Source of the DNA: Actinomycetes bacterium
GTDB lineage: Bacteria > Planctomycetota > Phycisphaerae > JAACET01
Assembly (NCBI GenBank): GCA_030614915.1
Contig: JAUXAG010000001.1
Coordinates: 187,170 to 251,169 of the forward strand
Reading direction: 5' to 3'
DNA length: 64,000 nt
Shown here: piece after piece, positions 3,870-62,641 of the stretch
Numbering within the stretch: the first letter of the stretch is position 1
Layout of the letters: the number at the start of each line of letters is the position of its first letter
Translations under genes and position numbers: made by a program
Notes under the pieces: model-generated
The model's input: the letters and a program-made list of their open reading frames with translations, nothing else
The model's database searches: none
What the model was told of the DNA's origin: nothing

Positions 3870-4194
3870 TGATCTGTCTTAAAAACGCAAAAGAGAATTA
3901 GCCACAGATTACGCAGATTTCACTGATAAAGAAAGGTACACATTGAAACTTATTGTAACCGGCTGGGAGGCTGAGTCAAATGTTTTGGAGAAAATCAGGT
4001 GGGGATTGTGCGAATCCAGGCTTGGGGGACCCTTCGGGTCTTTCATAATCGGGTTTGACAATATCGAACGTCCCGACAACAATAAGCCTCGGTATAACAG
4101 GGGGCTAAATAGAAGAATGAATGGGTTGCAGTGGCAGCATGAAAAACCTTAATCCAGCCAACGTTGGTTGCTGTGGGGGTATGGAAGGCATATT
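3870..4194. other. Intergenic region with dispersed TTAGCCACAGAT repeat
   Basis: Divergent promoter region between the minus-strand basic protein and the plus-strand aldo/keto reductase. At 3898-3927 it holds one unit of the TTAGCCACAGATTACGCAGA family seen at several other places in the window. Near 4105 the string GGGGGCTAAATA resembles the right flank of the GC hairpin elements but no partner arm is present. No coding potential seen. Confidence 0.5.
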
Positions 4195-8765: not shown

Positions 8766-9404
8766 GCGGGACCTCGCAGTAATCGGGCAACGGTTGTGAA
8801 CAGCTGCGACACAGGTGAGGACGATTTTCTTTATCGGGTATCAGGGAAGAAAAACTTTAGCGGTAGTAGAATGGGGCAGTCGGGGCGGCGAAGGTCCTAT
8901 AAATAGGGCAGGTTATATATCTGAAGGATGGTTTGGAGAAGCTCCGCCGGCAAAGACCGGGGCGTTGGGCAAGGCGGGTAATAAAAGAACCGGGGGCCGA
9001 GCTCCTCCCGCCTGGAACAAATTGGCGTCCGTCGGCCCCCGGCTATATTAATAACTGCCGGCAGGAACGTAACCGGCAGGTAGGAACAAAGGTGTAAGTC
9101 ACGAAGACGCTCCTGTATCCTCTCTCTTTTCTCTAGGGCGTGCATTTGCCGCTGGACGGGCAAGTTCAGTAACGGCAAGTCGAACAATTTTTAAGAGATT
9201 CGGCCGATATTTATGAGCGATACAAAAGCAAGATATGATCTGTCACACGAACGAATAACTTGGCCTTCTACTTTTATTATTCCCGCGAAAAAAGAAAAGG
9301 CAAATAAAGCGGAAAGAAATTCTTTATGAGGGTTACGACGGGCGTGCAGGAATCGAAAGAGAAAGGTGAATAAATGGAACGCAAATAAGAAAGGCAAAAC
9401 GGTT
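8766..9404. other. 639-bp intergenic region with large GC hairpin
   Basis: No convincing gene. At 8990-9042 there is an 11-bp perfect stem (CCGGGGGCCGA / TCGGCCCCCGG) around a 31-nt loop, followed by CTATATTAATAA, similar in style to the other GC hairpin elements of the window. A weaker palindrome TGCCGGCAGGAACGTAACCGGCA spans about 9056-9078. 9200-9404 is AT-rich. The downstream side may hold the end of the S41 protease transcript. Confidence 0.45.
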
Positions 9405-36493: not shown

Positions 36494-37080
36494 TCGAAGT
36501 CTCCATTTCGATTCTGCCCGCTGTCTAAACACTTATCGAGCCATTTGGCATTGAACTGTTTTAACATGGGCTATCTAAGCTTTCCAAAAAAGGCAAGAGA
36601 ATACTGGAGTATAGTAGTCCTGTATTTCGAGAAAATCAAGTTTTTTGGCAAAAAAAACAGATTTGGAGCCTGCTGCTATAACTTCTTGTGTATTGAGTTG
36701 TTATATACAATGAGGCTACAATTTGGCGGCTTTATCGCTGGGCAGAATTCGGTCCCGGCCAGGGCGGGTGAACGCTGATAGCGGTTGGCGAAAGGTTTAC
36801 CTTGAGCTTGCCGAAAGGCGGGCCGGAAAAAGAAACCCCCGGTAACGCGTAGCGTCCTTCGGAAACCGGGGGCTAAATATAAGACAAGTCTGCGGCAGTT
36901 CGAGCTAGAGTCTGTCCAAGGAAAACGCTGTGATCTTGACAGTAGAAAGTAGAGAGTAGATCGCTAGGGCAAGCCTTTTTCTACTGGTTTATCCGCAAAG
37001 CGGATACCTGGATCTACTGTTGAACTATCTACTGTCTCGGTCTCTGTGCTTTTGCCCGGCAAGATTGTCGGGACAAAGCA
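36494..37080. other. 587-bp intergenic region with two composite inverted repeats
   Basis: AT-rich near the Rrf2 start (36550-36720), then a GC hairpin element at 36835-36872 (ACCCCCGGT ... ACCGGGGG followed by CTAAATATA), then an imperfect long inverted repeat: GACAGTAGAAAGTAGAGAG (from 36938) against ATCTACTG...TATCTACTGTC (to 37036), enclosing the small hairpin ATCCGCAAAGCGGAT (36991-37005). No gene seen. Confidence 0.6.
36835..36882 (+). repeat. GC hairpin element with CTAAATATA flank
   Basis: GAA, then ACCCCCGGT (36835-36843), 21-nt spacer AACGCGTAGCGTCCTTCGGAA, ACCGGGGG (36865-36872), then CTAAATATA. Same arms and flanks as 62415-62473. Confidence 0.85.
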
Positions 37081-52309: not shown

Positions 52310-54454
52310 CTACTCCTGCCAATTGAATTCAATTCCCTTGGCCTTTAGGGCCTCGACAGCCTTGGCCAACCTTTCCTGAAAATCCGCTTCGTCTACTATT
52401 TCCACACCATGGGCCCCGCCCACCACGTTCCTCCTGCCGTTGTGATTGGCCTTGCTTTCAAAGAGAACCAGCAGATTTCCGTCAACATCATCCGGGCCGG
52501 GCCAGGGCAGCAGAACATAGTGATTGTCTTTTTCCGGATCACCGCCAACACTCGGACAGATAAAGAGTTCGCCCGGAGTGTAGTCTTCCTCAATCAAGAC
52601 CTCGCTCCATCGCCCGGCATCCGGATATTTGCCCTTGTGGCTGTTTGCGTACAAATACAAGGCGGTGTCCAAGCCTTTCACACGCGTGGCACATACTGCT
52701 GCGTTGGCTTGGCCTGTGGCTCGCCGAACGGCCGGAACAAGTATAGCTACCATGTAGGCAGCAGCAGACAAATCCTCGTCAACTCGTAAGGTATTCGGCT
52801 CAACCGAATAGCTTGCAGAAACCAGTGACATCTCTGCTAGATTCACCTCCTGCAAAATAGCTCCCAAGCTGGGCCGAAAATTTTTCACCATGCTGAATAT
52901 ACTCCCGAAATCAAGGTAAATCTCGGCAATTCTATTGGAGGGCATAGTGGCCCGCGCCTTGGCCATCTTTGGATAATCAGCCAGGCTCGAACCATGACCG
53001 TTAGCCACATTGATAACCCGCTCAGCCCGCTCGAATCCCCCGCCGACGATAAGCAGCACCTGAGCATCCGTCGGTGCAGCTATGCGGATGCTCATATCCG
53101 GACCGATGACCATGGGCAAGACCCGCATTACCTGCATGGCTTCGTTGGCAGGTGGATTATCCTGCCCAGTGTCGGCAAGTCTTATGGCGATGGTGTCGAT
53201 GCCCACGCCGGCATAGCTCTCGGCAGCGTCGGTATAGATGAGCTGCACGCCAGTGTCCTTGATCAGCGCGGAGACGGATCCACTTTGACAGGCTGTTTTT
53301 ATTTGCTGCTTGAACGCAGCAGCATCGGCGACATCGAAGCGGGCAACGAAGTTTAGCATTCCCGTGGCTGGGCTGCCCATACCGGCCGAAAAAGCCAGGC
53401 CCGAAAGCTGCCGGTAAGTAGCTTTGATATCTGATATCAGTTTCTCAGTAGATTCCTCGCCTAGCTTTTCCGCCAAGCTCGGATAAGTCACAGCTCTGGC
53501 CAAAAGACCGTCACTAATGACGTCGAGTTGGGCCGGGGAGATTCTCAGGGCCCCGGCCAGAATAAACGCTCCGGAGGGTATGGACTTATAGCTCGGCTCG
53601 GGCTGTCCTATCTGAGCGTTGATAAGCTCCGCCGCCGGCGAATCAGCTTCGAAAATTGCTCTTGCGTTATAGAAGATACCTTTATCGCTTACTTCCACGA
53701 TGTAGATGAACTTGTCCAGTTGTTCAACAAAGGATTGGCTCAAATCTAACGAAAATAATCCCATATCCCTTTCTATGATCTGCTTAGAATCGGCCAGCTC
53801 AGACTCTTGATCCACTTCACCTCGCACTTCAGAGCGAGTTTCATTCAATCCCTGAATTAACGACGGTCTTATTCGCTGAAAGTCGGCTAACAGCACGATT
53901 TTGCCTTGCTCGTAGGCTTGGCGAACTTCGGGCAAGACTTCAAACGATCCCTGGCCATTTGCCAGCTCCGCCGCCATGTCAGGCTCAAAGGCCACCACCA
54001 CAAACTCGCCCTTCACTGCCAGGTATATGTATTCAACCGTTTTGTCCTGGGTTGCGACCATTACCACACCCTCGGGCAATTCGCCCCCCATCGGGGCATT
54101 GTCTTTATGGCTCTGCAGGACCGCGCCCGCATCGGCGGCACTAATCAGAAAAGCTATGGGCATTTCACTTTCGGGAAACTTCTGGCAATCCGGCATGACA
54201 ACAGCTGCCGGGCCGGTGAAATCTACATCGCCGAGCACTTGGCGAATCGGGGCAAGGGGGTCTTTGAAATCCTCTTCCTCGGCCAGAACGGGCACCAATA
54301 GTTTGATCTGATCCACAATGCCCTGGGGGCTTTTGACGGCCACAAAACCGTAGGCATCTGCTGGAACAGACGACAAAACGTCCGCCTGACCCAGAGCAAC
54401 CGTGCAGGCAAGCAGCAAACAAGACGCAGGCAGGATTGTCAGTCGAATTTTCAT
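52310..54454 (-). CDS. Large secreted protein with C-terminal H-X9-DG-like domain
   Basis: About 714 residues from ATG 54454 (AGGAGG 7 nt upstream). Signal peptide (ILPASCLLLACTVALGQA). Residues 25-570 are a long alpha/beta region resembling the DUF3352-type proteins of planctomycetes (VPADAYGFVAVKSPQGIVDQ, several strand-helix repeats). The last 130 residues resemble the C-terminal part of planctomycete pseudopilin-like proteins: VKGLDTALYLYANSHKGKYPD, GELFICPSVG, YVLLPWPG, VVGGAHGVEIV. There is no N-terminal prepilin methylation motif, so it is not a pilin itself. Probably a periplasmic or surface protein. Confidence 0.8.
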   Translation of the reverse strand: MKIRLTILPASCLLLACTVALGQADVLSSVPADAYGFVAVKSPQGIVDQIKLLVPVLAEEEDFKDPLAPIRQVLGDVDFTGPAAVVMPDCQKFPESEMPIAFLISAADAGAVLQSHKDNAPMGGELPEGVVMVATQDKTVEYIYLAVKGEFVVVAFEPDMAAELANGQGSFEVLPEVRQAYEQGKIVLLADFQRIRPSLIQGLNETRSEVRGEVDQESELADSKQIIERDMGLFSLDLSQSFVEQLDKFIYIVEVSDKGIFYNARAIFEADSPAAELINAQIGQPEPSYKSIPSGAFILAGALRISPAQLDVISDGLLARAVTYPSLAEKLGEESTEKLISDIKATYRQLSGLAFSAGMGSPATGMLNFVARFDVADAAAFKQQIKTACQSGSVSALIKDTGVQLIYTDAAESYAGVGIDTIAIRLADTGQDNPPANEAMQVMRVLPMVIGPDMSIRIAAPTDAQVLLIVGGGFERAERVINVANGHGSSLADYPKMAKARATMPSNRIAEIYLDFGSIFSMVKNFRPSLGAILQEVNLAEMSLVSASYSVEPNTLRVDEDLSAAAYMVAILVPAVRRATGQANAAVCATRVKGLDTALYLYANSHKGKYPDAGRWSEVLIEEDYTPGELFICPSVGGDPEKDNHYVLLPWPGPDDVDGNLLVLFESKANHNGRRNVVGGAHGVEIVDEADFQERLAKAVEALKAKGIEFNWQE

Positions 54455-62341: not shown

Positions 62342-62401
62342 CCCCCCCCAGGACGCTCGTGCTTCGCAGCGCTTCGCAGAGTAGTACAGCCTGGGGGCGT
62401 T
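62342..62401 (+). repeat. 60-bp GC hairpin repeat, copy 2
   Basis: Identical to 54590-54649 over 60 bp. Immediately followed by GAAGCGAAGAA and the next GC element. Confidence 0.9.
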
Positions 62402-62414
62402 TGGAAGCGAAGAA

Positions 62415-62473
62415 ACCCCCGGTGGGCCCCCCAATCGCGATATTTCGCGATTTGGGACCCCTAAAACCGGGGG
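62415..62473 (+). repeat. GC hairpin element with CTAAATATA flank
   Basis: ACCCCCGGT (62415-62423) and ACCGGGGG (62466-62473) enclose 42 nt that hold an inner palindrome AATCGCGATATTTCGCGATT. The right flank GCTAAATATA is the same as at 36873. Confidence 0.85.
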
Positions 62474-62641
62474 CTAAATATAGCATGATCCACAGAACCT
62501 TTATGCAGCCGCGCGCCCTTGCCGCACGGCGGGCCAGATGTTATGCTATCTGCGTGCAGAGCTTGGCGGGCTCGGCGTGCGGAATGTATAAATCAGCATT
62601 GAACGTAACCCCTTATGTTACAGCGGGAAAGGCTTAGGCAA

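Follow-up and report, generated by a model that had tools for sequence, protein, structure and literature searches.

The closest described systems are the REP elements and their RAYT enzymes (TnpA_REP), in which short, multi-copy, intergenic palindromes carry a tag at one foot of the stem, the RAYT gene lies between inverted copies in an arrangement known as a REPtron, and the type of stem tracks the type of RAYT (Nunvar 2010, PMC2817692; Quentin 2018, PMC6006769; PMC8266576). The published tags are GT[AG]G and CGTC, and CnGA in the case of class 3 (PMC3733652, PMC6006769). How REPs spread is an open question in the field, and in one view inverted doublets, termed REPINs, are the moving unit and singlets their remnants (Bertels and Rainey 2011, PMC3116915). 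No REP with a CTAAA/TTTAG tag was found in the literature searched, which does not prove that none exists. The hairpins described here carry this very tag, and we consider it highly probable that they constitute a REP family whose dispersal is putatively the work of a Y1/HUH transposase subfamily (RAYT/TnpA_REP).

In the window, the whole 64-kb stretch of DNA that was analysed, a sequence-only reading had pointed to two hairpins with common arms, a common right flank and different interiors of 21 and 42 nt, and both are indeed real (36836-36881 and 62416-62482, tags included; Table 1). The window contains two perfect hairpins of 8 bp or more that bear the tag, vs none in 100 dinucleotide shuffles, and as single-stranded DNA each of the two elements folds better than 200 of 200 shuffles. 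The 42-nt interior itself contains a second hairpin. The left flank, which had been given as GAA, holds up in part only, being AA or GA at the foot of the stem, inside AAAGARA in the genome to which the window belongs (the own genome). A third hairpin at 8990-9042, taken in the same reading to have related arms, is an 11-bp hairpin that separates two convergent genes, one for a radical SAM protein (+), the other for a PDZ/S41 peptidase (-), but it is no member of the family: the combination of its arms (CCGGGGGCCGA) with its flank (CTATATTAA) does not recur exactly in about 430 kb of own-genome DNA, and it was therefore set aside as an unrelated singleton. Directly upstream of the second CTAAA hairpin lies a hairpin of another, related-looking family (CCCCC.GG ... 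CC.GGGGGC[AG]TT), members of which are often found immediately 5' of CTAAA hairpins and in their simple forms elsewhere read CCCCC.GG(ACGTAG)CC.GGGGGCATT; the interior of the copy in the window folds no better than shuffles.

Table 1. Hairpins, tags and adjoining sequences in the window
Feature	Position	Strand	Remarks
REP hairpin	36836..36872	+	Arms CCCCCGGT (36836-36843) and ACCGGGGG (36865-36872); 21-nt loop insert AACGCGTAGCGTCCTTCGGAA (36844-36864)
3' tag CTAAATATA	36873..36881	+	Other strand: TATATTTAG
REP hairpin	62416..62473	+	Arms CCCCCGGT (62416-62423) and ACCGGGGG (62466-62473); 42-nt interior (62424-62465)
3' tag CTAAATATA	62474..62482	+	
Recurrent 3' companion GCATGATCCACAGAACCTTTATGCAGCC	62483..62510	+	Adjoins other family copies too
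Hairpin, second related-looking family	62345..62397	+	CCCCCAGG ... CCTGGGGG, then CGTT (to 62401); own loop insert
Isolated GGGGGCTAAATAGA, without left arm	4100..4113	+	Degenerate half copy or chance

The own genome amounts to 2.56 Mb in 36 contigs, from which stretches around copies were sampled, with genes called as longest open reading frames. A genome-wide search for arms plus flank had been suggested in the sequence-only reading, with few copies as the outcome that would speak against it, and such a search returned 88 matches to ACCGGGGGCTAAATATA with up to three mismatches vs 6 for the reversed pattern. The exact word GGGGGCTAAA likewise occurs 119 times genome-wide vs 5 times for its reversed pattern, and 94 of the 118 such words in the sampled stretches are accompanied by a left arm that is 7 bp or longer. 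The family comprises about a hundred copies of a small mobile hairpin. Its core can be written as AA-[CCCCC..GGGGG hairpin, loop 3-5 nt]-CTAAAYA, and the stems are of a few types, namely CCCCCAGG(ATAAA)CCTGGGGG, CCCCCGGT(AAA)ACCGGGGG, CCCCCGGC(GTAAA)GCCGGGGG and a few others. Hence the arms, which had been regarded as constant, themselves vary, and since the stem types differ in their letters, pairing is kept while the letters change, as is also seen in one orthologous pair between the own genome and a congener (G002). The hairpin scan demanded pairing, and pairing alone is for this reason not independent evidence, which comes instead from the tag and the flanks. Rfam holds no match for the element.

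In the same congener, two inverted copies of the hairpin enclose a Y1_Tnp-like open frame of 169 codons in the manner of a REPtron. Related genes form a compact subfamily (A1) of about 150-165 aa with the motif TWTTYGTWLQGDERGYVK near the N-terminus, HxH and W[TS]xG[FY]DKR[FY]C. Its Tyr is invariant, and in 25 of 29 members a His stands at position +4 from it (Y-x3-H). All 14 aligned members match Pfam Y1_Tnp with HxH and Tyr invariant, and the subfamily scores below the NCBIfam cut-off for RAYTs. At the search threshold, matches were counted in 58 of 119 relatives of a Planctomycetota genome (G104), some of them of a more distant, class-3-like kind. An inward-facing AA-hairpin-CTAA is found within 350 bp at 27 of the 29 readable subfamily loci, in 15 of them on both sides, and the same flanking hairpins are found in 3 of 26 class-3-like relatives, two of these three being among those closest to the subfamily. 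Some RAYT loci furthermore carry exact stems of the own genome, CCCCCAGG at L227 and L229 and CCCCCGGT at L202, L215, L219 and L221, and the distances between stems are correlated with the distances between RAYTs (Mantel r 0.55, p 5e-5, n=27). In the own genome, searches with Pfam Y1_Tnp and with the RAYT of the congener gave nothing convincing, and the own-phylum sample yielded only more distant relatives; the own copies were thus probably left behind by a transposase that has since been lost, unless the gene lies in an assembly gap.

The record names Actinomycetota and Elusimicrobia among the matches had raised the idea of a spread across phyla, which was dropped, the "Actinomycetota" genomes being congeners of the own genome. 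One genome of the same class as the window (G080) and a Phycisphaerales genome (G108) give identical match coordinates, and the Elusimicrobia match L034 has the same flanks as the Planctomycetota match L086, which suggests mis-binning. The deposited names look wrong for JAACET (OTbin.97) and DAOVKO (CSMAG_1421), recorded as "Actinomycetota", and for the "Elusimicrobia" contig L034; the own genome, of which those two are congeners, belongs by its kinship with G080 and G108 probably to Planctomycetota, class Phycisphaerae.

As to mechanism, the RAYT would bind the single-stranded hairpin, cut at or near the CTAAA tag and join copies into the lagging-strand template during replication. Insertion into this template predicts one orientation per replication arm, and the entry of a copy into the tag of an older one predicts tandem arrays. 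With contig stretches pooled, 93 of 97 sampled hairpins follow the sign of the GC skew and the other 4 lie at a skew switch; the pooled-contig count is 97:0 when it includes these last, four copies on contig C12 (53.0-56.2 kb) that closely follow the cumulative maximum at position 53,017. Copies within one array are not independent, which makes the p-value calculated for the pooled count too favourable, but the agreement with skew holds contig by contig. Two skew switches were found, on C2 and C12, and on C2, where the sign changes after about 60.4 kb, the orientation of the copies reverses from one side to the other. When skew is taken from the DNA within 4 kb of a copy, the count is 75:22, local skew being a noisy measure since pooling by contig gave a clear result. 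A mere trend is seen in another Planctomycetota genome (G106; 60:16 with skew) and in genus mates (36:7, local skew noisy). The G-rich strand is by convention the leading strand. It is on this convention that the assignment to the lagging template rests, since dnaA is not found at the skew flip of C2, and so does not confirm this flip as the origin, and two dnaA-like genes lie elsewhere (C14 at 13 kb, C12 at 84 kb). The pattern of orientation suggests insertion into DNA exposed during replication, a step we infer from this convention and from the behaviour of IS200/IS605 elements and RAYTs (PMC6006769, PMC8266576). Other frequent dispersed repeats of the own genome are all polarised with GC skew as well, among them A/G-rich repeats that lack a hairpin (GAAAGAAATACAGA 22:0, TCCTTCCCGTAGGG 20:0, TCACCACGAAGGCA 13:0 and AATTAGCCACAGAT 13:0, counted in stretches L124-L163 and the window, a sample biased to hairpin-holding stretches). 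The polarity is therefore not specific to a RAYT, and it may have a general cause that is not peculiar to the CTAAA hairpins.

The strict polarity per contig, switching where skew switches, could also be taken to mean that the hairpins, whatever their origin, are polar chromosome markers kept by selection and read by a segregation or repair machine in the manner of KOPS. This is very unlikely, since the C2 sample that spans the skew switch (6-125 kb) contains no copies and the spread is patchy, since copies are nested and in tandem and their stems variable, and since unrelated repeats have the same polarity; the association with RAYTs is likewise not predicted, although a mobile element might later have been co-opted.

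The hairpins might also be explained as intrinsic terminators of transcription that act on the opposite strand, where they read as a GC stem followed by TTTCTTT. In favour of this, the reverse-strand stem often precedes TTTC or TCTC, and a glutamine synthetase gene on the minus strand ends about 200 bp before the copy at 36836. The copies are indeed mainly intergenic (90 of 97 vs 14% expected), but a gene ends on the usable strand in 50 of 92 cases, which does not exceed the share among intergenic gaps at large (109 of 192), divergent genes flank 25 copies, and orientation tracks GC skew instead. The strands of neighbouring genes show no bias matching the orientation of the copies, whose position and strand are accordingly not set by an upstream gene, and as the direction of neighbouring genes is irrelevant the hairpins are not dedicated terminators. 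This explanation, which also leaves the RAYT flanks unaccounted for, must be regarded as very improbable. The sequence-only reading had preferred mobile elements to plain terminators, with a location of all copies just after genes with T-runs as counter-evidence, and on this point it is borne out by the many, mostly intergenic and gene-strand independent copies, by their tandem and nested occurrence and by their association with a transposase.

Unusually, copies are mostly single or head-to-tail rather than in inverted REPIN pairs, and some are nested in loops. The loop measures 3-5 nt in most copies, and the long interiors, a minority, are other small sequences nested in the hairpin loop. They belong to a few recurrent sequences, AACGCGTAGCGTCC...GTCGGAA and GGGCCCCCCAATCGCG...GACCCCT, the latter once with a further hairpin inside. 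At one orthologous site the hairpin is plain in another genome (G001), whereas in the own genome it bears a loop insert and is joined in tandem by one more hairpin; the right flank is the same in both. Clean empty sites were sought in congeners, in which intergenic DNA is too diverged at all but one site. Chimeric half-hairpins GATGACAGCAAGGATAAACCTGGGGGCTAAA are present in several copies (L128 1-250, L139, L145, L151 and others), as if joined inside the loop, some of them forming a 59-bp tandem array that lies at the end of a contig. The claim that constant ends with variable insides define the element, as in an integron-like cassette with exchangeable cargo, finds no support and is hardly credible, for although the two sites in the window combine common arms with different interiors, most loops are of 3-5 nt and the few types of interior are short repeats, without genes, that also occur outside hairpins.

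Compared with known systems, the family agrees with REP/RAYT in being a short, multi-copy and mainly intergenic palindrome tagged at one stem foot and in the co-variation of stem and RAYT, and the congener G002 and other Planctomycetota, though not the own genome, have inverted copies around a Y1_Tnp gene. It differs in that the stem foot carries CTAAA/TTTAG and neither GT[AG]G nor CGTC, that the RAYT has Y-x3-H and not Y-x3-NP, that none was found in the own genome, and that the sampled copies have one orientation relative to skew. Class 3 of TnpA_Y1 (Quentin 2018, PMC6006769) is similar in being mostly from Planctomycetes, in its NHVH and W[TA] motifs, in its atypical gene-flanking hairpins and in their high copy number in a host, and a class-3-like protein (L189) has a similar N-terminal TTYGTWL motif, but the proteins of that class have YV[VI][AENY]EQ and are longer (median 178), and its foot is CnGA, in contrast to Y-x3-H, about 150-165 aa and CTAAA here. 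REPINs are likewise short, non-autonomous mobile DNA of a RAYT, but they are inverted doublets, whereas single and head-to-tail copies dominate here and within each contig the sampled copies, 97 in all, point one way. IS200/IS605 elements (IS608, ISDra2) resemble the family in that they use a Y1/HUH enzyme, recognise hairpins and, by the published model (PMC6006769), favour the lagging strand, but the units here are of about 34 nt and carry neither tnpA nor tnpB, and the enzyme is a relative of RAYTs, not TnpA_IS200 (Y-x3-Q). Tentatively, and with rather more doubt than belief, we put forward that a distinct class of Planctomycetota RAYTs might move single hairpins, and no inverted pairs, with near-absolute strand specificity at the replication fork, copies stacking in their own tags and loops and being written into only one strand per replication arm; if true, polar repeats would record the direction of replication. 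Single, uniformly oriented copies and a matching divergent RAYT subfamily make replication-coupled single-strand spread directly testable, and REP/RAYT systems are extended by a new tag and by a RAYT group that falls outside the published classes compared.
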